Assembly: GCA_938003835.1 (NCBI GenBank)
Contig: CALKXJ010000008.1
Span: forward strand, 62,001-126,000
From: an uncultured Bryobacteraceae bacterium
GTDB lineage: Bacteria; Acidobacteriota; Terriglobia; Bryobacterales; Bryobacteraceae
Length of the DNA: 64,000 nucleotides
Reading direction: 5' to 3'
The notes under the pieces are model-generated. The model saw nothing but the letters and a program-made list of their open reading frames with translations. It was not told the origin of the DNA and made no database searches. A program made the position numbers and the translations under genes. Below are positions 7,290-36,615 of this stretch, one piece after another. Every line of letters starts with the position of its first letter. Position 1 is the stretch's first letter.

Positions 7290-8549
7290 TCAGGTGATAC
7301 CGCCCAGGCCGAGCGCGACGGCGCCGGTGGCGAACATCGCCGCGAAGGTGAGGGCCGCACGCCAGGCGAACCCCATCCCGCCCGCCCAGGCGGCCAGGCC
7401 GGTTTTGACCACGGCGTTCATGAGCAGGGCGACGAACAGCACCTGGCGCGCGGTGGCGAGCGAGATGGCTCCAGTCAGCTCCAGGTTGGCGAGCGAGACG
7501 GAGACGGCGTCAGCGTCCACGGCGCCGCCCGCCGTCGAGGCCCAGTAGACGCCCCGGTCACCCAGCTCGGCCACCGCCGCCTTGCTGAGAAACATGACGC
7601 CAGCAAAGAGGGCGCCGAACTTCAGAGCGGGCATCAGGCGGAACGGATTGCCCGTCGGCAGGCGGTGGGAGGCGCCGGCGGGCCGGCCGCGCCGGTAGAG
7701 CAGGGCGCCGACCAGCAGGTTGGCGCCGGTCATTGCCGCGAGCGTCGAAAGGGCGGCGTATCCGAGGCCGCTGTTGACCACGTAAAGGATGGCGAGCACA
7801 CGCGGAAACTGGATCGCATTGGCAATCGTCATCGCCGACCAGTACAGCCGCCGGTCCTCGGCCTGCTCCTTGGCCTCGCGGGCGAAGGCCAGCGTGGCCG
7901 CCGTTGTCGAAGCCAGTCCCCCGAGAAGACTCGTCCAGGCCAGTCCCTTGTCGGCCCCCAGGAATTTCTCCAGAAAGTAGCCGGCGAAGGAGATCGACGA
8001 GACCAGAATCACGAACAGCCAGATCTGCCGCGGCGAAAAGGCCGCATACGGCCCGTAGCTGCCCGTCGGGAGGATCGGGTAGACGATGAAGATCAGCGCC
8101 AGGAACCAGATCGTGTCGTTGAACTCGCGTTCGGTGATTGTCTGGCGCAGAAACGTATGCAGGGTGCGCTTGGCCTCGAGGAATACGACGATGAGGAGAG
8201 CCGCGCCGATGGCGAGTCCGGCGCCGAGCGGCCGCGCGGGATGGGTGGCCAGCACCGCCAGGCAGAAAGTGGCCACGGCGGCCATCTCCGTGGTGATTCC
8301 GGTGCGCGTCCGCGCCTCCCAGTGAAAGAGAACCAGCACCGCTCCGATCACGACAAGCGCGGTGGCGGTGAGCAGAGCGCTGTTGATGAGGCCGCAGATG
8401 CCGCCGGCCAGCGCAATGAGAAAGAAGTCCCGCACGCCCGCCTGGCGCTCGTCCTGGGCGGCCTCGCGTTGCGCGCCGATGACCAGGCCGATCAGGAGGG
8501 CTTCGGCCAGGCCGACGAGCGACGCGGGCATCTGGGCGGGGTCGTCCAC
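7290..8549 (-). CDS. MgtC/DUF4010-type integral membrane protein
   Basis: 419 residues, almost entirely hydrophobic with about 11-12 membrane helices. The N-terminal part (GLAEALLIGLVIGAQRE) resembles the MgtC/SapB family, and the C-terminal half resembles DUF4010 (GGLASTTAATLAFAREAKE, with ANAIQFPRV further on). Function is unknown for this architecture; transport or ion homeostasis roles have been suggested for relatives. It starts 4 bases after the NIPSNAP gene ends, so the two are probably co-transcribed. An internal ATG at 8531 is a possible alternative start. Confidence 0.78.
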   Translation of the reverse strand: MDDPAQMPASLVGLAEALLIGLVIGAQREAAQDERQAGVRDFFLIALAGGICGLINSALLTATALVVIGAVLVLFHWEARTRTGITTEMAAVATFCLAVLATHPARPLGAGLAIGAALLIVVFLEAKRTLHTFLRQTITEREFNDTIWFLALIFIVYPILPTGSYGPYAAFSPRQIWLFVILVSSISFAGYFLEKFLGADKGLAWTSLLGGLASTTAATLAFAREAKEQAEDRRLYWSAMTIANAIQFPRVLAILYVVNSGLGYAALSTLAAMTGANLLVGALLYRRGRPAGASHRLPTGNPFRLMPALKFGALFAGVMFLSKAAVAELGDRGVYWASTAGGAVDADAVSVSLANLELTGAISLATARQVLFVALLMNAVVKTGLAAWAGGMGFAWRAALTFAAMFATGAVALGLGGIT

Positions 8550-27389: not shown

Positions 27390-27935
27390 ATGAAGAAGAT
27401 TTTACTGGTTCTCACACTCCTGGCAGGAGGGCCGGCCTGGCCCCAGCAGATGCGCGTGGAGGTCACCAAGCCGACCACGCCGGAACTCGACGCCAAGGCG
27501 AACGACCCGGCGGTCCCCGACGGCATCGCCGTCTCGGCTCAGTTCGAGCGCATCGTCATCCTCCGCTTCAAGCACCAGACCGATCTGCTGGCCGGCATGG
27601 AAAGGCTGATCCGCGAGCAGCGCATCCGCAACGCGGTGATACTTTCCGGTGTCGGCAGCGTGCGGAACTACCACGTGCATACAGTGAGCAATCGCGAGTT
27701 CCCGTCGAAGAACGTTTATACGCGCGATCCCTCCCGGCCCGCCGACATTGTCTCTATCAACGGCTATGTCCTCGGCGGCAAACTGCACGCGCACGTGACG
27801 CTGGCCGATCCCGAAAAGGCCTTCGGCGGGCACCTGGAGCCGGAAACGCAGGTCTTCACCTTCGCCATCGTGACGCTCGGGGTGCTCCCGGACTCGCTCG
27901 ATTTGAGCCGCTTCGACGACAAGACCTGGCGCTAG
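27390..27935 (+). CDS. Exported PPC/DUF296 domain protein
   Basis: 181 residues. A signal peptide (KKILLVLTLLAGGPAWPQQ) precedes one plants-and-prokaryotes-conserved (PPC, DUF296) domain: LLAGMERLIREQRIRNAVILSG, GSVRNYHVHTV, and GKLHAHVTLADPEKAFGGHL with clustered histidines typical of a metal site. Bacterial PPC proteins are trimers of unknown function; plant relatives are DNA-binding AT-hook proteins. Export argues against DNA binding. It is divergent from the methyltransferase gene and precedes the PspA unit by 63 bases. Confidence 0.8.
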   Translation: MKKILLVLTLLAGGPAWPQQMRVEVTKPTTPELDAKANDPAVPDGIAVSAQFERIVILRFKHQTDLLAGMERLIREQRIRNAVILSGVGSVRNYHVHTVSNREFPSKNVYTRDPSRPADIVSINGYVLGGKLHAHVTLADPEKAFGGHLEPETQVFTFAIVTLGVLPDSLDLSRFDDKTWR

Positions 27936-27998: not shown

Positions 27999-28643
27999 AT
28001 GGCGAAGAAGTGGTACAACCTTTTCATTTCGGTTGAAGGACAGCCGGAGCCCTCCGGTGAGGAGCCCTCCCCGGATGCCGCCCGCACCGTCGCCGAAATC
28101 GCCGCCGGCGTCCCGCCGCCCCCGGTTCAGATGAAGCCCGTGGCCGATCCGGCCTCGTTCGCCGAGATCTACGAGGCCGCCGAGATCCGGCCTCCTGCTC
28201 ACGGCTACACCATCTTGAAAGTCGCCGAGATGCTGCGGAGCGCGCACATCCGCAACATGCCGCGCGAGGTCAAGCGCAGCTCGCTTCTCGTGGCGCTGGA
28301 GGCGGCGGGCGCGCGGGTGGAGGACGTCATCCAGGACGCTGTCCGCCGCGACCAGGCTCTCGATGCCTTCGAACGCGTCCAGCAACGCGCCGCCGAGCAG
28401 TTCGAAGCCGACAAGACCCGAGAGAACGAGCGCCTTCAGGCGGAGCTCGACCGGCTGGTGGCCGAATACCGGGCGCGCATTCAGGCCAACCTGGACGCCA
28501 TCGCCAGAGAACGGGAGCGTTTCTTCGGCTGGCGACTTCAGAAGCAGGAAGAAGAAAGAAAGATCGCCGACGCAGTCTCGTATTTCGTGAGTGAGAATCC
28601 GATTACGACATCGGCGCCGCCGCCCGCCGCAGGAGGGCAATAG
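27999..28643 (+). CDS. Uncharacterised coiled-coil protein, first gene of the PspA unit
   Basis: 214 residues from ATG 27999 (ATG 27987 adds four residues). It starts with KKWYNLFISVE, has an acidic proline-rich linker, a small helical domain (GYTILKVAEMLRSAHIRNMP, about 65-85) and a long charged coiled coil (FERVQQRAAEQFEADKTREN onward, about 120-195). The family is not recognised. It is upstream of the PspA homologue by 55 bases and in the same direction as the ABC and AAA+ genes, so it may be a cytoplasmic adaptor or polymerisation partner of PspA; this is inference. Confidence 0.6.
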   Translation: MAKKWYNLFISVEGQPEPSGEEPSPDAARTVAEIAAGVPPPPVQMKPVADPASFAEIYEAAEIRPPAHGYTILKVAEMLRSAHIRNMPREVKRSSLLVALEAAGARVEDVIQDAVRRDQALDAFERVQQRAAEQFEADKTRENERLQAELDRLVAEYRARIQANLDAIARERERFFGWRLQKQEEERKIADAVSYFVSENPITTSAPPPAAGGQ

Positions 28644-28698
28644 GTAGGATTGAGAGGGGAGGGTCCAAGCGCCGGTCCCCGGCGACGAGGAGGAAGGC

Positions 28699-29427
28699 AT
28701 GTTTCAACGCTTCAAGCGGCTGATCCGCTCAATCATCGGGTTTTTTATCTCGGTGGGTGAGAATCCGGAAATCATTCTCGAGCAGAACATTCGCGATATG
28801 AACGACCAGGTGCCGCGGATGAACGAGAGCATCGCCATGGTCAAGGCGAACGTGACGCTGCTCGAAAAGGAGGAAGCCAAGTACAAGATGGAGCTGGCGG
28901 AGCTGACGGCCAAGGTGAAGGCCGCCATCCAGGCCAACCGGGACGACCTGGCCGGCAGTTTCGCCGTCCAGCTCGAACAGCTCCGCAGCGCGCTGGCGCG
29001 CACGCAGGGCCAGTTGGCTTCGGCGCGCGCTGCCTATGAGAAGGCCCTGTTGGTGAAGCAGGCCTTCCTGCGTGAAAAGGAGCGCAAGACCCGCGAGGCG
29101 CTCAACGCCATCCGCGACTACCGCCGCGCCCAGTGGCAGAAGAAGGTGGCCGACGCCATGGAGCAGTTCGAGGTTGCCGGCATCAGCCAAACCCACGACG
29201 AGATGGTGCGCAAGATCGAGGAGATGACCGCGATCAACGAGGCGCGGATGGAGATGGCTCTGGGCAACGTGGACCAGCAGCGCATCAAAATCGAGGAGGA
29301 GGCCGAGAAGATTCGCGCCAGCGAGCTGGTCAAGCAGTTCAAGGTGGAAATGGGCCTGCTCGCGCCGGAGCCGTCGGCCGTTCCGGAGAAGACGATCGGG
29401 GGAAGGGAACCGGAGCGGCTCACTTAG
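28699..29427 (+). CDS. PspA/IM30 family envelope-stress protein
   Basis: 242 residues, preceded by a strong ribosome site (GAGGAGGAAGG). An amphipathic N-terminal helix (FQRFKRLIRSIIGFFISVG) is followed by a nearly continuous alpha-helical coiled coil (about 30-215) with PspA-typical ENPEIILEQNIRDMN and the KEEAKYKMELAEL register. PspA proteins form ESCRT-III-like assemblies that bind stressed inner membrane and help maintain the proton gradient. There is no pspF, pspB or pspC nearby; instead the partners are an ABC transporter and AAA+ ATPase, so regulation probably differs from the E. coli system. Confidence 0.87.
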   Translation: MFQRFKRLIRSIIGFFISVGENPEIILEQNIRDMNDQVPRMNESIAMVKANVTLLEKEEAKYKMELAELTAKVKAAIQANRDDLAGSFAVQLEQLRSALARTQGQLASARAAYEKALLVKQAFLREKERKTREALNAIRDYRRAQWQKKVADAMEQFEVAGISQTHDEMVRKIEEMTAINEARMEMALGNVDQQRIKIEEEAEKIRASELVKQFKVEMGLLAPEPSAVPEKTIGGREPERLT

Positions 29428-29457
29428 CGGAGGAGCACGCCGGGAGGAGGTGACGCC

Positions 29458-31029
29458 GTGGGCGTACGCATCGAAAAAGGCGGCTGGATTCTGATTTTCC
29501 TGCTCGGGGTGGCGCTGGTGGGCTACAGCCTGCACCGCTATGGGGTTCTGGATCTTCGCAGGTGGCTTGGACCGCCGGAGACGCGCCGGGCGGGCGAACC
29601 GGTCGACACATCGAAACCTCTGCCGCCGCCGGGCGCGGGCCCCGTGGAGGCCAAGAATGTCCGCGTGCGGGTCAACATCTGGGTGGGCTGCGTCGGCGGG
29701 CTGGTGGCCAACGGGGGCCTGGACACCGTCCCGGGCTCCATCTACGCCAACAAAGGGCTGAACGTCTCCTTCAAGATCATCGACGACTGGACGGAGGGCG
29801 CGGCGGCGCTGGCCACCGACAACGTGGACATCATGCTCACCACCGTCGATGTCTGGGCCAAGGATCAGGCGCAGTTCCTCGAGCGGAACTTTCCGGCGCG
29901 CGCCTTCTTCATGGTGGACTGGTCGCGGGGCGCCGACGGCGTCATCGGCCGTCAGGGGATCCAGAGCATCGAGGATCTGGCTGGCAAGACGGTGGCTTTC
30001 GCCCCGTACACACCCTCCCACTTCCTTCTCTGGAACGGGCTCAAGAGCTCCGGCCTGACCACCGAACAGCGCTACGAGATCTTCTCCAAGGCGGTCCACA
30101 CCAAGGACGGCATCGAGCCGGCCACGCTGTTCGCGCAGCAGAAGGTGGACGCGGCCGTCGCCTGGGACCCCGACATGAGCGACGCGGTGGCCCGCCGGCC
30201 CGGCGCGCGCAAGATTTACGACACGCGCGTCGCCAACCGGCTGATCGCCGACATCCTGGTGGTGAGCGATCGCTTCGCCTCCCGGGCGCCTCAGACGCTC
30301 GTCCGCTTCATCGAAGGCTGGCTCGAAGGGGTGGAGTTCATCAAGGCCCAGCCGGCGCGAGCCTACACGCTGCTTGGCACCATCAAGGATTTCAACATTC
30401 CCGAGGATCTCGCCAAGACGATGCTCGAAGGGGTGCGCCTGGCCGACTATGCCGACAACGTGGCGTTTTTCGGCACGCCGGAGGCGCCCTCCGATTACGC
30501 CAACATCTTCAAGATGGCCCAGGAAATGTATCGCGAGCTGCGCGTCATCCGGCGGGCCTCGGATCCGGAGACGACCCTGGACCGGCGGTATCTCGAGGCG
30601 CTGCGGGGCAGGTTCTCCACCGCCTCGACCGAAGCCCCGATCGAGTACCGGGCTCCGGCCCCGGGCGCCGCCCCGATCGCCACCCAGCGCCGCTCGATCT
30701 ACTTCGAGACCAACTCCGCCCGGATGAGTCTCGATGCGCGTGCCGTGGTGGATCAGATCGGCGACTTCATGCGCGCCTACGAAAACACCGTGGTCGACAT
30801 CGAGGGCAACACCGATTCGACCGGATCGCGCGAGCTGAACCTGGCTTTGTCGAAAGAGCGCGCCGAAGCCGTCAAGCGGTATCTGGTGGAAAAGTACGGC
30901 TTCCCGCCGGAGCGCATGCGGACTCGCGGGAACGGGCCGGACAACCCCATCGCCAGCAACGCCACGCCGGAGGGCCGGGAGCGGAACCGGCGCACGGACA
31001 TCAAGGTGTACGCCAATCCGGCCAGGTGA
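29458..31029 (+). CDS. Membrane-anchored ABC substrate-binding protein fused to an OmpA-type peptidoglycan-binding domain
   Basis: 523 residues from GTG 29458 behind GGGAGGAGG. One membrane helix (about 10-26) and a linker lead into a periplasmic substrate-binding domain of the nitrate/taurine/thiamine-precursor type (about 66-385: RVNIWVGCVGG, NVDIMLTTVDVWAK, LAGKTVAFAPYTPSHFLLWN). The C-terminal OmpA domain (411-518) begins RRSIYFETNSARMS and has the peptidoglycan-binding pair D453 and R468, spaced 15 apart as in OmpA. One protein thus anchors to inner membrane and cell wall while offering a solute-binding domain. Permease and ATPase genes follow directly. Ligand is unknown. Confidence 0.85.
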   Translation: MGVRIEKGGWILIFLLGVALVGYSLHRYGVLDLRRWLGPPETRRAGEPVDTSKPLPPPGAGPVEAKNVRVRVNIWVGCVGGLVANGGLDTVPGSIYANKGLNVSFKIIDDWTEGAAALATDNVDIMLTTVDVWAKDQAQFLERNFPARAFFMVDWSRGADGVIGRQGIQSIEDLAGKTVAFAPYTPSHFLLWNGLKSSGLTTEQRYEIFSKAVHTKDGIEPATLFAQQKVDAAVAWDPDMSDAVARRPGARKIYDTRVANRLIADILVVSDRFASRAPQTLVRFIEGWLEGVEFIKAQPARAYTLLGTIKDFNIPEDLAKTMLEGVRLADYADNVAFFGTPEAPSDYANIFKMAQEMYRELRVIRRASDPETTLDRRYLEALRGRFSTASTEAPIEYRAPAPGAAPIATQRRSIYFETNSARMSLDARAVVDQIGDFMRAYENTVVDIEGNTDSTGSRELNLALSKERAEAVKRYLVEKYGFPPERMRTRGNGPDNPIASNATPEGRERNRRTDIKVYANPAR

Positions 31030-31033
31030 GCCG

Positions 31034-31876
31034 ATGCCGGAACTGGGGACGATTCGCAAACCGGTCGGGCCGAGGACACGCCTCGTGCTCGGGGGTGTGA
31101 GCTGGCTGGGCCTGATCCTCCTCTGGCTGGCGCTGACCCAGTGGGAGCTGCTTCCCCCTCTGTCGCTGCCTCACCCGGCGGGCGTCGTCCAGGCTTTTAT
31201 CCGGCTGTGGACCGAATACGACCTGCCGGGTAACGTCCTGATGAGCTGGTGGCGCATCGCGCAGGCTTTCCTCTGGTCGGCGGCCATCGCCATCCCACTG
31301 GGGATCCTGATGGCGAGCTTTCCCTGGGTCCACGCCCTCGTAAACCCGGTGGCGGCGCCCATGCGGTCGATGCCCATCACCGCCTTCCTGCCGGCTTTCA
31401 TCGCTCTGTTCGGTATGGAGGAGGCCATGAAGGTGGCCTTTCTGTGGTTTGGAATGTTCTTCTACCTGCTGGCGGTGGTGGTCGAGGAGGCCGGCCGCGT
31501 CGAAAACGAGCTGCTCGAGACGGCTTACACGCTGGGTGCGCGGCGCCGGCATGTGCTCTGGCTTACGTTCGAGGCTTCGTTTCCCGCCATCTTCGGTTCC
31601 TTCCGGATTCTATACGACATCGGCTGGACCTACGTGATCCTGGCTGAGATGGTCAACGCGCGCAAAGGTGTCGGCTATATGGTGGAGGCGGCGCGCAAGG
31701 TGCTCGATTTCGAGCGCGTCTACGCCGGCATCATCGCCATCGGCCTGGCGGCGTTTCTGTTCCGGCTCCTGCTCGGCTGGCTCGAGCACCGGCTGTTTCC
31801 CTGGAGGCGCGTCCGCCGGCCGGCCTCGGAACCGGCGGCGGCCGTAGGCGCCGGAGCGACCGTCAAGGCGAGCTAG
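31034..31876 (+). CDS. ABC transporter permease, TauC/SsuC type
   Basis: 280 residues with about six membrane helices. The cytoplasmic loop that contacts the ATPase is recognisable (ELLETAYTLGARRRHVLWL, about 157-175), as is the MRSMPITAFLPAFIALFG helix region of nitrate/sulfonate/taurine permeases. It starts 4 bases after the binding-protein gene and ends 1 base before the ATPase gene, so the three form a transporter module. The C-terminus is a short alanine-rich tail. Substrate is unknown; alkanesulfonate or nitrate are only family-level analogies. Confidence 0.88.
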   Translation: MPELGTIRKPVGPRTRLVLGGVSWLGLILLWLALTQWELLPPLSLPHPAGVVQAFIRLWTEYDLPGNVLMSWWRIAQAFLWSAAIAIPLGILMASFPWVHALVNPVAAPMRSMPITAFLPAFIALFGMEEAMKVAFLWFGMFFYLLAVVVEEAGRVENELLETAYTLGARRRHVLWLTFEASFPAIFGSFRILYDIGWTYVILAEMVNARKGVGYMVEAARKVLDFERVYAGIIAIGLAAFLFRLLLGWLEHRLFPWRRVRRPASEPAAAVGAGATVKAS

Positions 31877-31877
31877 C

Positions 31878-32705
31878 ATGCGCACCGCACGGACAAGAAT
31901 CACCTTGCGGAACGTCTCCCGCACCTTCATCGGCGCGCAGGGCGAACGCATCGAGGCGATTCGAGACGTCAACCTCGACATCGAGGACGCCTTCTCGGCT
32001 GAAGGTCGCGATGTCGGTGAGTTCCATGTGCTGCTCGGGCCCTCCGGCTGCGGCAAGTCGACCGTGCTGCGCCTGATCGCCGGCCTGGACCGGCCTGACA
32101 CCGGCGAAGTACTGGTCAACGGCGAGCGGGTCCGCGGACCCGGCCGCGACCGCGGCATGGTCTTCCAGAAGTACACCTCCTTTCCCTGGCTGACGGTGGA
32201 GGAAAACATCGGCTACGGGCTGAAGATCAACGGCGTGCCGCCCGGAGAGCGGCGTCAGACGGTGGCGCATCTGGTGGAGGCGGTCGGCCTGCGCGGCTTC
32301 GAAAAAGCCTACCCGAGCACCCTCTCCGGAGGCATGCAGCAGCGCGTGGCCATCGCCCGGACGCTGGCGCTGCGGCCTCAGGTGATGTTGATGGACGAGC
32401 CCTTCGGAGCCCTGGACGCGCAGACCCGCGCCGCCATGCAGCAACTGCTGCTTGCCATCTGGGAGGAGACGGCCAACACCATCCTCTTCGTCACCCACGA
32501 CGTGGACGAGGCCGTCTATCTGGCCGACCGCATCTATGTCATGTCAGCGCGGCCGGGGACTATCATAGAGGAGATAGCGGTGCCTCTCCCCCGCCCGCGT
32601 GAGCCTTCCGTGAAGCAACGGCGGGAGTTTGTCGAGCTCCAGCAGTACGTGCTGGCGTGCCTCAGACGCGCTCCCGGTCACGGGCAGGTGCGGGTCAGCG
32701 TGTGA
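31878..32705 (+). CDS. ABC transporter ATP-binding protein, TauB/SsuB type
   Basis: 275 residues. All nucleotide-binding motifs are intact: Walker A GPSGCGKST (54-62), Q-loop near VFQKYTSFPW, signature LSGGMQQRVAIARTL, Walker B MLMDEPFGALD and the switch histidine in FVTHDVDEA. It energises the adjacent TauC-like permease. The stop TGA shares one base with the ATG of the next gene, showing tight translational coupling to the uncharacterised coiled-coil membrane protein and supporting a single functional unit. Confidence 0.9.
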   Translation: MRTARTRITLRNVSRTFIGAQGERIEAIRDVNLDIEDAFSAEGRDVGEFHVLLGPSGCGKSTVLRLIAGLDRPDTGEVLVNGERVRGPGRDRGMVFQKYTSFPWLTVEENIGYGLKINGVPPGERRQTVAHLVEAVGLRGFEKAYPSTLSGGMQQRVAIARTLALRPQVMLMDEPFGALDAQTRAAMQQLLLAIWEETANTILFVTHDVDEAVYLADRIYVMSARPGTIIEEIAVPLPRPREPSVKQRREFVELQQYVLACLRRAPGHGQVRVSV

Positions 32706-33562
32706 TGCCGGACCAGATTGACGACTCCAACATCAGTTACGTCAAGGCGGCCTTCACCTGGCAGTACAACCTGATCGCGCTCGCCGGGGCGGCCGCTTTC
32801 GCACTGGTCTCGGGCAGCGCCCTGCCGCTAATGCTGGCGGCCGGACTCGAGCTGATCTATCTGAGCATCGTGCCGCAGAACAGCCGCTTCCGCCGCCTGG
32901 TCCGCTCCTGGAGATACGAGGAGGAGAAACGCAGGAAGCAGAGGCGGCTCTGGGAGCTGTTCCGGGAATTGCCCCGCGAGATGCAGAATCGCTACGCGGA
33001 GTTGGACAAGACCTGCCGCGAGATCTTCGCCAATTACGAGCGCCTGTCGGCGGCCTCACGCATGTTCGCGCGGCAGTTGGGCGAGCGGCTGACTTCGTTG
33101 CTCGAGTCGTACCTGCGCCTGCTCCATTCGGCTTATCTTCACCGCCAGCACCTCAAGCTCACTGATCCCGGGGCCATCCGCCGGGAGATTGCCGCGCTCG
33201 AACGGTCGCTCGGAGCCGAGCCGCCCAAGGTGCAGGAGATCAACCGGAAGCGCATCGAGATTCTCACCAAGCGCCTGGAGCGGTACGAGAAGGTGAAAGA
33301 AAACCAGACCGTCATCGACGCGCAGTGCGCCGCCATCGAGGATACCCTCAGGCTGATCCGCGACCAGTCGCTCACGATCCGCGACCCGCAGGAGCTCACC
33401 GCTCACCTCGATCAGGTGCTGCACGAGGTCGAACATACCGAGGAGACGGTCCGCGAGATGGAGGCGATCTTCGAGATGGCCGCGCCTGAGCTGGGACTGG
33501 CCGTTTCCCCGGAGGCGGCTCGGCCTTCGGAATTGCAAGCGCGGCGGCGCGTGAAAAATTGA
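32705..33562 (+). CDS. Uncharacterised membrane-anchored coiled-coil protein in the PspA/ABC unit
   Basis: 285 residues from ATG 32705, the TGATG overlap with the ATPase stop. Two adjacent hydrophobic stretches (about 18-50: YNLIALAGAAAFALVSG and LMLAAGLELIYLSIV) form a hairpin, followed by a charged helical region (YEEEKRRKQRRLWELFRELP) and long coiled coils to about residue 265. No family is recognised. The layout suggests an inner-membrane protein with a large cytoplasmic helical domain, well placed to link the transporter to PspA or the AAA+ protein. That role is inference from gene order only. Confidence 0.65.
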   Translation: MPDQIDDSNISYVKAAFTWQYNLIALAGAAAFALVSGSALPLMLAAGLELIYLSIVPQNSRFRRLVRSWRYEEEKRRKQRRLWELFRELPREMQNRYAELDKTCREIFANYERLSAASRMFARQLGERLTSLLESYLRLLHSAYLHRQHLKLTDPGAIRREIAALERSLGAEPPKVQEINRKRIEILTKRLERYEKVKENQTVIDAQCAAIEDTLRLIRDQSLTIRDPQELTAHLDQVLHEVEHTEETVREMEAIFEMAAPELGLAVSPEAARPSELQARRRVKN

Positions 33563-33580
33563 AAGAAAAGAGAAGCGACG

Positions 33581-35317
33581 ATGGCTGGCTCGACGGGGAC
33601 AATCATGGAAAGCTTTCCGGCCTGGGCGCGCGAGCTCTCCGAGAAGTACTACTCGCGAACGGTCGCGATGTTCATCCTGCACGGCAACGTGCGGGACCTG
33701 GTGCCGGTGCGGCGCGGGGAGCGAACCGAGTATCTCTCGCTGCAACGGTTCCTCGAGACCCAGATCTTCGGCCGCCGCGACCTGGTGCTCACCTACGACC
33801 GCGGCGGCGGCCTGAGCTTCGCCGCGCCGGAGATGCAGGCCGATTTCCGCCATGCCCTGGCCGGCTACGACGCCTTTTACGGCACCAGGTACTCGCAGGG
33901 GCTGCCGCGCAACCCGGACGGCGTGCTCAGCCTGCTGGACAATTACCTGCGGCTGCGCATCCTCGACGGCAAGAAGGTCGCCCTGGTCATCGACTTTGCC
34001 GAAACGATCGCGCCCGCCGCCGAGGTTTCGAGCCTTTCGGGCGAGGACCGCAACTCGGTGGTGATTCTCAAGCGCTGGGCGCAGAACCCCGCCTTTCTGC
34101 AAGCCGATGTGACCGTCTGCCTGGTGACGGAAAACCTGGTGGAGCTGCATCAAGGCCTGGTGCAGTCGCCCGGGGTGGCCTCCATCACCATCCCCTTGCC
34201 CGACGAGGGCGAGCGCCTGGACTACATCCGCTCCCTGCTTGCGGCTACGCCGCTTCCGGCGGGAAGCGACGTCGCGGACACGACGCTCGCGAAGCTCACG
34301 GCCGGCCTTAAGCGCGTGCAGCTCCGGGGCCTCGTTGCCGACGCGGTCGAGAATCGGAGGCCGCTCACCGCCAGGTTCCTCACCCAGCGCAAGAAGGAAC
34401 TGATCGAGGCCGAATCGGGCGGCCTGCTCGAGTTCATCGAAAGCCGCTATGACCTTTCGATGGTGGCCGGTCATGAGGCGGCGAAGAAAAAACTCCATGA
34501 CGCGGCGGCGGCCATACGCGCCGGCCGGACCGACGTCTTGCCGATGGGCTATGTGATCTGCGGCCCGGTCGGCACCGGCAAGACCTTCCTGACCACCTGC
34601 TTTGCCGGCGAGATGGGCATCCCGGCGGTGAAGCTCAAGAACTTTCGGAGCATGTGGCAGGGCGTCACCGAGGGCAACCTCGAGCGCGTGCTCAGCCTGC
34701 TCAAGGCGATGAGTCCCATCGCGGTGATCGTCGACGAAGCCGATGCCCAGCTCGGCGACCGTTCGAACACCGGCGACAGCGGCGTCTCCAACCGCGTCTT
34801 CGCCCAGATCGCGCAGTTCATGGGTGACACCGAACTGCGCGGCAAGGTGATCTGGTTCCTGCTGACCTGCCGGCCGGATCTGATTCCGGTGGACCTGAAG
34901 CGCCAGGGCCGGGCGGAAGAGCACATCGCGCTGTTCTATCCGGATACAGAAGAGGAGCGCCTGGCGCTGCTGCGCGCCATGCAGAAAAAGACGGGCACGC
35001 GCGTGGCCTCGCCCGAGGCGGAGCGGCGGTTCCTCGAGCGCGCCGACTCGCTCTCCGGCGCCGACATCGAGGCCGTGCTCATCCGCGCGAAGATGAAGAG
35101 CGCGCTTGAGCAGGATGCCGCCGTAGACGCGGAAGATCTGCTGGCGGCGCTCGAGGATTTCATCCCGCCCTCCTATCCGACCGAGATCGAGCTTCAGGTG
35201 CTGGCCGCGGTGCTCGAATGCACCAGCAAGAGCCTGCTGCCGGCGCGTTACCGGGACATGGACCGGGCCGAGATCATCCGCCGGGCGAACGAACTGGCGC
35301 TGCTCGTGCGCGACTAG
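33581..35317 (+). CDS. AAA+ ATPase with degenerate N-terminal AAA-like half
   Basis: 578 residues from ATG 33581 (ATG 33605 is possible). The C-terminal AAA+ domain has Walker A GPVGTGKT (328-335), Walker B AVIVDEAD (381-388) and a sensor/arginine-finger region (TCRPDLIPVDLKRQGRAEE). The N-terminal 280 residues look like a second AAA-type fold with a Walker-B-like strand (KKVALVIDFAE, about 131-141) but no P-loop. The type resembles FtsH/CbbQ-like remodelling ATPases without a protease domain. As last gene of the PspA/ABC unit it is a candidate for disassembling PspA polymers, as Vps4 does for ESCRT-III; this is inference. Confidence 0.82.
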   Translation: MAGSTGTIMESFPAWARELSEKYYSRTVAMFILHGNVRDLVPVRRGERTEYLSLQRFLETQIFGRRDLVLTYDRGGGLSFAAPEMQADFRHALAGYDAFYGTRYSQGLPRNPDGVLSLLDNYLRLRILDGKKVALVIDFAETIAPAAEVSSLSGEDRNSVVILKRWAQNPAFLQADVTVCLVTENLVELHQGLVQSPGVASITIPLPDEGERLDYIRSLLAATPLPAGSDVADTTLAKLTAGLKRVQLRGLVADAVENRRPLTARFLTQRKKELIEAESGGLLEFIESRYDLSMVAGHEAAKKKLHDAAAAIRAGRTDVLPMGYVICGPVGTGKTFLTTCFAGEMGIPAVKLKNFRSMWQGVTEGNLERVLSLLKAMSPIAVIVDEADAQLGDRSNTGDSGVSNRVFAQIAQFMGDTELRGKVIWFLLTCRPDLIPVDLKRQGRAEEHIALFYPDTEEERLALLRAMQKKTGTRVASPEAERRFLERADSLSGADIEAVLIRAKMKSALEQDAAVDAEDLLAALEDFIPPSYPTEIELQVLAAVLECTSKSLLPARYRDMDRAEIIRRANELALLVRD

Positions 35318-35328
35318 CGCGGGCCGAA

Positions 35329-36615
35329 TCACGCACCGCTTCGCACTCCGACAGGGACGCCCGTTGCGGCCGGGGTCTGGCTCCACGGCCGCAGCCCGAG
35401 CAGCGGACAGGCGTCGCAGACGTGGCGGCGGCCGCAGTTGACGCGCCAGCAGTCCACCTCGCCGAGCTGGGCCAGGTAGACGCGGCTCATGTGGTCCTTC
35501 GTCTGACCTTTAAGCAGCACCAGATCCCCGGCGCGGAGCTCGGCGCGGAGGAATTCGGCGGCCTGCTTCGGCGTGACGAAGTGGTGGGCGTTCCCGAGCC
35601 GCATGCCCGCCCGGACTGCCGCGCGCGCCGCGTAGGCGCTTCCCTCGGAGACGAACACGGCCACCTCGGCCGAGGCGGCGGCCCACTGTGCGAGCATCCG
35701 TTGCCGCTGGCGGTAGTGCTGCCCGGAGTTGGCCACGTCGCTGATGACCACGATGCGCCGCGCCGCCGACGCCTCGCGCAGCACCTCGAAAGCGGCCTCG
35801 GTATCGGTGAGATTGCCGTGCGCCTCGTCGCGGAGAAGGACGGCGCCGTTAGGCAGCGCCACGGGCTCCATCCGCGCGGTGTAGGGTCGCACCTCGGCCA
35901 CGGCCCGGCTCGCCTGCTCGAGCGTCGCTCCCAGGGCTCTGCCGGCGGCGAGGGCTGCCAGGAAAGCCGGCAGCCACTGGCGCCCCACGAACTTCGTTTC
36001 CACTTCGACCGATTCCTCGCCGGCGTGGGCGACGAAGCGCAGCCTCATCGGCCAGGCCGCCGCCACCCCGTCCGCCCAGACGTCGAACTCCGGGCGGCTG
36101 CCGAACCACTTCAGGCGGCCGCGCACCTGGCGCGCCATGGCCGCCACCCGGAGATCGTCCCCGTTGAGCACGGCGATGCCGCCCCGCCGCAGAAATCGCA
36201 ACAGTTTCGCCTTCTCCTCGGCGATCTTCTCGAGGCTCCCCATCGTCGAGAGATGGGGCGAGGCGACGGCGAGTTCGACCGCCACGTCGGGCCGGATCAG
36301 CAAGGCGTGGCGCAGCATGTGTCCCGGCTGATCGATCCCGACTTCGAGCACGACGAAACGGTGCCAGGGCCGAGCGCTTAGGATGGTACGCGCGATCCAG
36401 GGACCGCCGTTGTTGCTGCGCAGGGTCTTCACGGTGGGTCCGAGCTGTTTGAGGATCGCTGCCAAGCAGTCCTTGGCCGTGGTCTTGCCGACGCTGCCGG
36501 TGATCGCGACGAAGGTGGTGCGAACGAGCGCGGTGCGCCAGAGGAAGGCGGCGGCCCAGAGGATTCGCTCCCCAAGGGCTGCGAGCCACTGTTTCAGGAT
36601 GGAAATTCCGGGCAC
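35329..36615 (-). CDS. Mur-ligase-family protein (MurF-like) with C-terminal cysteine cluster
   Basis: 428 residues from GTG 36615 behind a GGGGAG ribosome site. A short amphipathic N-terminus precedes the ATP-binding P-loop TGSVGKTT (39-46) and the central domain (NNGGPWIARTIL, VLEVGIDQPGHM, LNGDDLRVAAMA), then a C-terminal Mur ligase domain (about 255-385). The N-terminal UDP-sugar-binding domain of true MurF is missing. The tail has C389-x4-C394-x5-C400-x2-C403, a possible zinc or iron-sulfur site. It may ligate an amino acid to a non-standard substrate. It converges with the AAA+ gene 11 bases away and diverges from rimO. Confidence 0.78.
   Translation of the reverse strand: MPGISILKQWLAALGERILWAAAFLWRTALVRTTFVAITGSVGKTTAKDCLAAILKQLGPTVKTLRSNNGGPWIARTILSARPWHRFVVLEVGIDQPGHMLRHALLIRPDVAVELAVASPHLSTMGSLEKIAEEKAKLLRFLRRGGIAVLNGDDLRVAAMARQVRGRLKWFGSRPEFDVWADGVAAAWPMRLRFVAHAGEESVEVETKFVGRQWLPAFLAALAAGRALGATLEQASRAVAEVRPYTARMEPVALPNGAVLLRDEAHGNLTDTEAAFEVLREASAARRIVVISDVANSGQHYRQRQRMLAQWAAASAEVAVFVSEGSAYAARAAVRAGMRLGNAHHFVTPKQAAEFLRAELRAGDLVLLKGQTKDHMSRVYLAQLGEVDCWRVNCGRRHVCDACPLLGLRPWSQTPAATGVPVGVRSGA

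Follow-up and report, generated by a model that had tools for sequence, protein, structure and literature searches.

The literature poses as an open question whether a Vps4-like motor serves PspA and Vipp1 polymers (PMC8281802; discussed also in PMC11746142); Liu et al. (2021) give the Vps4 counterpart as unknown and describe the PspA/Vipp1 regions past helix 5 as fast-evolving (PMC8281802). The closest described gene neighborhood is that of Ravi et al. (2024; PMC11237479), where one operon combines PspA, “Snf7 homologs” bearing a transmembrane (TM) segment, a two-domain AAA+ protein, an ATP-binding cassette (ABC) ATPase, a permease and a PBPB-OmpA protein. For such operons, exemplified by OGG56892.1, a link between remodeling and transport is suggested. 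We analyzed an operon of this type in 64,000 nucleotides from an uncultured Bryobacteraceae bacterium (assembly GCA_938003835.1, contig CALKXJ010000008.1, positions 62,001 to 126,000), hereafter the window. Seven plus-strand genes, designated g1 to g7, occupy positions 27999 to 35317 and are separated by 55, 30, 4, 1, −1 and 18 bases, in exact agreement with a first-pass annotation made from the letters of the window. That annotation took the unit to be undescribed, which must be withdrawn, since the operon type is already listed by Ravi et al. (section 18). We find that PspA (g2), the membrane protein g6 and the AAA+ protein g7 are the core of the cluster, and that the genes for a solute-binding protein (SBP) fused to OmpA, a permease and an ATPase (g3 to g5) are an exchangeable, optional cassette.

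The window carries the Ravi-type set (PspA, two-domain AAA+, ABC ATPase, permease, PBPB plus OmpA), with the N-terminal AAA copy resting on an alignment of E 2.8e-4 and probability 41%. To the printed description we add the swappable transporter, a PspA tail motif that goes with the AAA+ protein, the co-occurrence of the core genes, and g1 as a recurrent partner. In the available main text of Ravi et al., supplements and web app aside, no cassette exchange, PspA tail motif, co-occurrence test or g1-like protein was found. No earlier account of the neighborhood besides PMC11237479 was recognized among the papers listed, supplements aside, and it is not described in the available parts of PMC9239133 and PMC12358876.

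All features given here with coordinates lie on the plus strand unless otherwise stated. The core consists of g2 (28699..29427), a PspA/IM30 protein of the ESCRT-III superfamily (PF04012, E 1.6e-16; PspA_IM30 score 61 bits against a curated cut-off of 33.9) that is the sole PspA match in the genome; g6 (32705..33562), with two TM helices followed by long helices and no family above cut-off; and g7 (33581..35317), an AAA+ ATPase with two AAA-like domains (Pfam AAA, E 2e-20). The cassette consists of g3 (29458..31029), an SBP fused to an OmpA domain and anchored in the inner membrane, as judged from Pfam, hydropathy and profile matches; g4 (31034..31876), an ABC importer permease (BPD_transp_1) that is TauC/SaoP-like, below the cut-offs of those models; and g5 (31878..32705), an ABC ATPase (ABC_tran) whose best NCBIfam model is SaoA, below cut-off. 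The first gene, g1 (27999..28643), encodes an uncharacterized protein that reaches no family above cut-off. A Pfam scan agrees with the domain content assigned at first pass and found no PspF, PspB or PspC among the seven genes, to which the search for PspB and PspF was confined. A PspC-domain protein is encoded outside the operon on another contig of the genome.

Relatives of g7 were collected by running an AAA+ alignment against genome contigs, which gave at least 220 relatives; the best 80 loci were kept (L-numbers below), many of the fetched pieces ending at contig ends. By record title, AAA+ loci come from Acidobacteria, Balneolaceae, Rhodothermales and other Bacteroidetes, Planctomycetota, Gemmatimonadetes, Myxococcales and Deltaproteobacteria, Elusimicrobia and Riflebacteria. 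The first-pass suggestion of similar neighborhoods in other phyla is thus borne out by gene-neighborhood comparison, with conservation well beyond this genome, and the cluster is beyond chance because orthologous clusters are present in many genomes. Among the best 80 loci, PspA was found in 49, g6 in 48 and an SBP-OmpA match of at least 250 bits in 21. The full seven-gene order occurs in Bryobacterales loci. Planctomycetota loci (L113, L114, L121) have PspA-AAA+ followed by SBP-OmpA-permease-ATPase-g6, and Rhodothermales pieces such as L065, L083 and L089 have the AAA+ gene without other operon members. In Balneolaceae, PspA is followed by a small coiled-coil gene and g6, and AAA+ comes after a gap, which in L068 contains two more genes. 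The small Balneolaceae gene (∼150 residues; L068:6395-6856) has no Pfam match in L068, and is perhaps the third coiled-coil gene that Ravi et al. name next to the PspA and Snf7 genes of Bacteroidetes (CBH24266.1; PMC11237479, section 15).

Genome counts were made in two phyla, with tests that ignore relatedness above genus and thresholds that differ between queries. Among 247 Acidobacteriota genomes, AAA+ was found in 38, g6 in 49, PspA in 73 and SBP-OmpA in 30. AAA+ and g6 occur together in 32 genomes (Fisher p 6.4e-22; within 12 kb in 23), AAA+ and PspA in 33 (p 1e-15; within 12 kb in 22), and g6 and PspA in 48, which is 48 of the 49 g6 carriers (p 2.3e-31; within 12 kb in 39). AAA+ and SBP-OmpA share 28 genomes, or 28 of the 30 SBP-OmpA carriers (p 2.8e-26; within 12 kb in 18). 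These associations persist after collapse to 141 genera (AAA+/g6 p 1.6e-18). Among 149 Planctomycetota genomes (AAA+ 30, g6 17, PspA 43, SBP-OmpA 25), AAA+ is present in all 17 g6 genomes (p 1.3e-14), and the pairs AAA+/SBP-OmpA and AAA+/PspA occur in 20 (p 3.4e-13) and 19 (p 1e-5), respectively; 5 of the 25 SBP-OmpA genomes have no AAA+. PspA and AAA+ therefore travel together in both phyla, as anticipated at first pass. For 17 AAA+ loci whose fetched piece lacks PspA, every one of the 17 genomes carries one PspA on another contig; note that several of those contigs are short, and that a contig split gives no true PspA-AAA+ distance. In several Acidobacteriota genomes (G280, G126, G123, G111) the operon parts are present but far apart or on separate contigs, and this unlinked co-presence favors a shared function beyond hitch-hiking.

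Comparison of loci separates the cassette from the core. Between L057 and L059, identity is 97% for PspA, 86% for g6, 90% for AAA+ and 66% for g1, but for the cassette it falls to 23% (SBP-OmpA), 25% (permease) and 33% (ATPase). The alternative SBP and permease of L057 are shared by L060 and L037 (69-90%); L060 also has the L057-type ATPase (78%), and the ATPase of L037 is different (27-29%). The alternative-cassette SBP (L037, L057) has a Pfam match to OmpA only. L139 presents the reverse case, with a cassette 62-68% identical to that of the window and a g6 and AAA+ of 30% and 32% identity. In L033, g3 is reduced to a stub (53 residues aligned) and neither permease nor operon ATPase is present, and PspA, g6 and AAA+ are 80%, 59% and 77% identical to those of the window. 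L045, L111 and L122 have PspA, g6 and AAA+ but no cassette within the fetched piece. Because cassettes are swapped or absent, the transporter is a plug-in outside the core. A single seven-gene machine, as first proposed, is consequently too strong a description: the PspA-g6-AAA+ core holds, and PspA and AAA+ do part from the transporter in L033, L045, L111, L122 and the Balneolaceae loci, a partial match to what the first-pass annotation had named as refuting its reading.

The PspA protein of the window ends in a tail with the motif K231-T-I-G234 (29389..29400), a candidate AAA+ handle identified from column conservation and motif counts. K231 and G234 are among 12 columns conserved in at least 90% of 23 PspA sequences that are 18-79% identical to the window PspA, and a K-x-[ILM]-G tail is typical of PspA copies adjoining AAA+. 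A first, looser pattern also matched the helix-end sequence RQMGL (22 of 35 AAA+ and 12 of 41 AAA-less sequences) and was replaced by a five-residue form, [KR]-x-[ILMV]-G-[PGNSK], written down before counting; in the relaxed form the fifth residue is free. Among named loci, the strict pattern is present in 44 of 49 PspA proteins encoded beside AAA+ and the relaxed pattern in 48 of 49, and shuffled tails match the strict pattern in a mean of 1.1 and a maximum of 5 of 49. With the helix end removed the counts are 43/49 and 47/49; the difference is L097, whose tail ends KKSIGSKN and is lost entirely under the cutting rule. These named-locus counts are no independent test because the same loci largely suggested the pattern.

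Across Acidobacteriota genomes, the strict motif is present in 21 of 31 with AAA+ and 0 of 38 without it (p 1.6e-10), or, when hand-collapsed to families, in 14/20 and 0/9 (p 7e-4). Ancestry is a confounder in this test because two families dominate the AAA-less set. The count left out the window genome, G081 (odd frame), and G255 and G090 (contig ends), and G086 was scored as a miss despite its cut tail; 5 of the 31 and 3 of the 38 tails had been seen before the pattern was fixed. We propose, by analogy, that the K-x-[ILM]-G motif may be a handle for the AAA+ protein, comparable to the MIT-interacting motif of ESCRT-III for Vps4. As a separate observation, several PspA tails in family f27 (L127-L129 and others), from PspA-g6 pairs without this AAA+, carry G, S, A or E after KQI in place of K-x-I-G-P.

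In g7, the C-terminal half is a classic AAA domain (34463..35155) with the motifs GPVGTGKT, VIVDEAD, the pore-loop-like MWQG, and KRQGR. Its Walker A, Walker B and GxR residues hardly vary across 98 sequences, and the ATPase motifs are intact. The N-terminal half (33617..34435) is a degenerate AAA-like domain with no Walker A, delimited by hhalign comparison of N- and C-domain profiles. The two halves align at E 2.8e-4 but with a probability of just 41%; this and the absence of Walker A fit an inactive AAA copy. Pfam gave no MIT domain (up to E 0.1) and no DNA-binding domain match in g7. Orthology to Vps4 was considered and rejected, as the closest solved chains, in the best 60 of 264 rows, are those of VCP/CDC48.

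The SBP-OmpA protein g3 (Pfam NMT1, E 5.3e-7, and OmpA, E 8.5e-21) has one hydrophobic stretch, an N-terminal membrane anchor at residues 3-26 (29464..29535). This is followed by a TauA/SsuA-like binding domain (29653..30597) and an OmpA domain at residues 412-517 (30691..31008; 74.6 bits against a cut-off of 27.2). By profile, TauA is the top solved match (1.9e-16). TauA binds the amine of taurine through Glu106 and Asp205, with Trp176 also in the pocket (PMC6906117). These residues align with g3 D160, D265 and W236, respectively, a single numbering offset of 21 suiting all three, and the three g3 residues are invariant in 13 sequences. The sulfonate-binding Gln30 of TauA falls before the part aligned with g3. 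From these pocket residues we infer that the ligand would carry an amine or a similar cation. In the OmpA domain, D453 and R468 are invariant in 7 sequences and are presumably the Asp/Arg pair of the OmpA peptidoglycan site. Both g4 and g5 fall in ordinary importer families (Pfam, NCBIfam). Some loci have more than one SBP-type gene ahead of a single permease (two in L140; three in L100, of which 7389-8363 is without an OmpA match), and in L047 (4739-5706) two partial SBP-OmpA matches lie directly 5′ of a full-length copy, which looks like a broken duplication.

Hydropathy places two overlapping hydrophobic stretches within residues 22-57 of g6, and its AlphaFold2 (AF2) model (pLDDT 85.3) combines two TM helices with a helical bundle. 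It may well be the TM-bearing “Snf7 homolog” described by Ravi et al. By sequence, the best PDB match is at E 0.15, with nothing relevant. Foldseek gave no match under E 0.001 (best 0.21), and no ESCRT-III entry stands among the best 50 of 333 rows. The best 50 VIA rows (Z 8.5-12.6) include many BAR/F-BAR domains and designed bundles and no ESCRT-III entry; note that a Z of ∼13 is common for helical bundles according to the tool, that the g6 rows are below this, and that the absence of ESCRT-III among them excludes nothing.

The g1 protein has an N-terminal KKWYNLFISV stretch, a helical domain, a long coiled coil and an NPITT C-terminal motif; its AF2 model (pLDDT 77.9) has helices at 54-103, then a single helix at 107-198. 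In the fetched loci it has 22 matches at E ≤ 1e-4, the two weakest of which are doubtful, reaching Elusimicrobia (L102) and Planctomycetota (L109), and is a recurrent uncharacterized partner of the operon. This N-terminal stretch and g1 starts such as KKWYNYFVSV and LLGFFIKI resemble PspA helix alpha0 (FFGFFISV) by eye only. Kinship of g1 with PspA was rejected (hhalign probability 3.8%), g1 against g6 giving 1.3%. The 41 Foldseek rows for g1, with a best E of 1.8 (Pex14) and one Vipp1 row at E 8.2, were taken as no match.

Around the operon, a PCC-domain protein is encoded immediately 5′ of g1 (27390-27935), and a Mur ligase-like gene (35329-36615; best NCBIfam MurF, below cut-off) lies directly 3′ on the opposite strand. 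Promoter and terminator patterns number 1 and 4, against 0.7 and 4.7 in shuffles. Two genomes far apart from each other encode a von Willebrand A-domain protein within or next to the operon (L142:7189-8106, L102:3-1013), which may be a further partner. An anti-phage reading was dropped because models for IetA (AAA), ZorB/MotB (OmpA part) and ABC ATPases each match single domains only.

Tentatively, and with slightly less than even confidence, we favor a membrane-remodeling machine formed by PspA and the AAA+ protein, with an exchangeable, peptidoglycan-tethered solute input. Proteins of the PspA family are established to polymerize at the inner membrane on its cytoplasmic side, where the polymer would here be anchored or nucleated by g6 through its two TM helices. 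The AAA+ protein would hold the PspA tail at K-x-[ILM]-G, its degenerate N-domain serving as a binding platform and its C-terminal domain extracting subunits, and would fill the role that Vps4 has for ESCRT-III as a non-Vps4 ATPase. SBP-OmpA, held between inner membrane and peptidoglycan, may capture an amine-bearing solute for its importer. Solute occupancy or import could then tune local remodeling, or remodeling could aid import, making the importer either input or client. Signaling from a putative periplasmic sensor to PspA via the ABC part, as the first-pass annotation had it, is possible. In its favor are the observed gene order, the co-occurrence counts, the cassette swap, the conserved tail motif, the intact ATPase motifs and the kept TauA-pocket residues; the action of AAA+ on PspA, the handle, the direction of coupling, the class of ligand and the parts played by g6 and g1 are inferences. 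Several observations weigh against this machine. AAA+ is patchy in close relatives (E ≤ 1e-30 in 16 of 37 same-family genomes and 0 of 24 others, 61 genomes in all). The strict motif is missing from 10 of the 31 Acidobacteriota AAA+ genomes, 6 of which end KT[ILM]-COOH, and the relaxed motif, present in 21/31 AAA+ genomes, is found also in 5/38 AAA-less genomes (p 4e-6). PspA proteins encoded on another contig than AAA+ (17 genomes) give 8 strict and 13 relaxed matches. A profile link between g6 and PspA was not found (hhalign probability 1.4%). Finally, PspA and g6 occur without AAA+ in 16 Acidobacteriota genomes, every one a member of family f27, so this pair can work without the motor.

Three other explanations were weighed. 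The AAA+ protein may extract or unfold g6 or the transporter, with PspA a neighbor in the same stress operon. We consider this unlikely, even though g6 is always accompanied by AAA+ in Planctomycetota (17/17), g6 has short recurring C-terminal ends in Bryobacterales and Balneolaceae, and 11 of the 30 Planctomycetota AAA+ genomes have no PspA match, which also counts against the PspA-AAA+ machine. The conserved motif is that of PspA, kept at 18-79% identity, the genomes lacking PspA in the AAA+ piece all have it elsewhere, and f27 carries g6 without AAA+. That the parts are co-regulated in an envelope-stress regulon and physically separate would suit the differing gene order and content between loci, but the short or overlapping gaps and the unlinked co-occurrence indicate one process and the tail motif suggests contact, which make this, too, improbable. 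It is rather less likely still that the operon encodes an ordinary TauABC-like importer, its surrounding membrane merely guarded or repaired by PspA, g6 and AAA+. Such an importer fits the families of g4 and g5 and the presence of AAA+ in 28/30 (Acidobacteriota) and 20/25 (Planctomycetota) SBP-OmpA genomes, but TauABC/SsuABC elsewhere are not known to need such a core, and the loci named above have the core with no transporter in the fetched piece.

A bolder form of the PspA-AAA+ machine, which we regard as doubtful, would be a functional ESCRT-III/Vps4 counterpart in several phyla, in which a dedicated AAA+ motor takes PspA polymers apart via K-x-[ILM]-G and the core is a socket for varied peptidoglycan-tethered receptors; if true, outside sensing gates membrane remodeling. 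The operon class being known already, the value lies in a concrete test of the stated open question of a Vps4-like motor. For that purpose the operon provides a possible motor together with a well-defined motif that can be removed, and transporter swaps and losses found in nature separate the core from the input.

Among known systems, the operons of Ravi et al. list the same components as the window, with g6 as the candidate for their Snf7 homolog; among these are a two-domain AAA+ whose N-terminal copy is inactive and the fusion of solute- and peptidoglycan-binding domains. The canonical PspFABC system shares PspA, whereas the seven genes of the window lack PspB, PspC and PspF, and g7 has no match to a DNA-binding domain. 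TauABC and SsuABC have SBP, permease and ATPase of the same families, and g3 keeps the Trp and the acidic residues of the TauA pocket; g3 differs in its N-terminal membrane anchor and its fusion to OmpA, with the Gln30 region outside the alignment. Vps4 has a single AAA cassette preceded by an MIT domain, unlike g7, which has no MIT match, two AAA-like domains, and VCP/CDC48 as the best solved relatives in the rows listed. In common with ESCRT-III/Vps4, the window pairs a member of the ESCRT-III superfamily with a classic AAA ATPase, and its polymer protein carries a short C-terminal motif.

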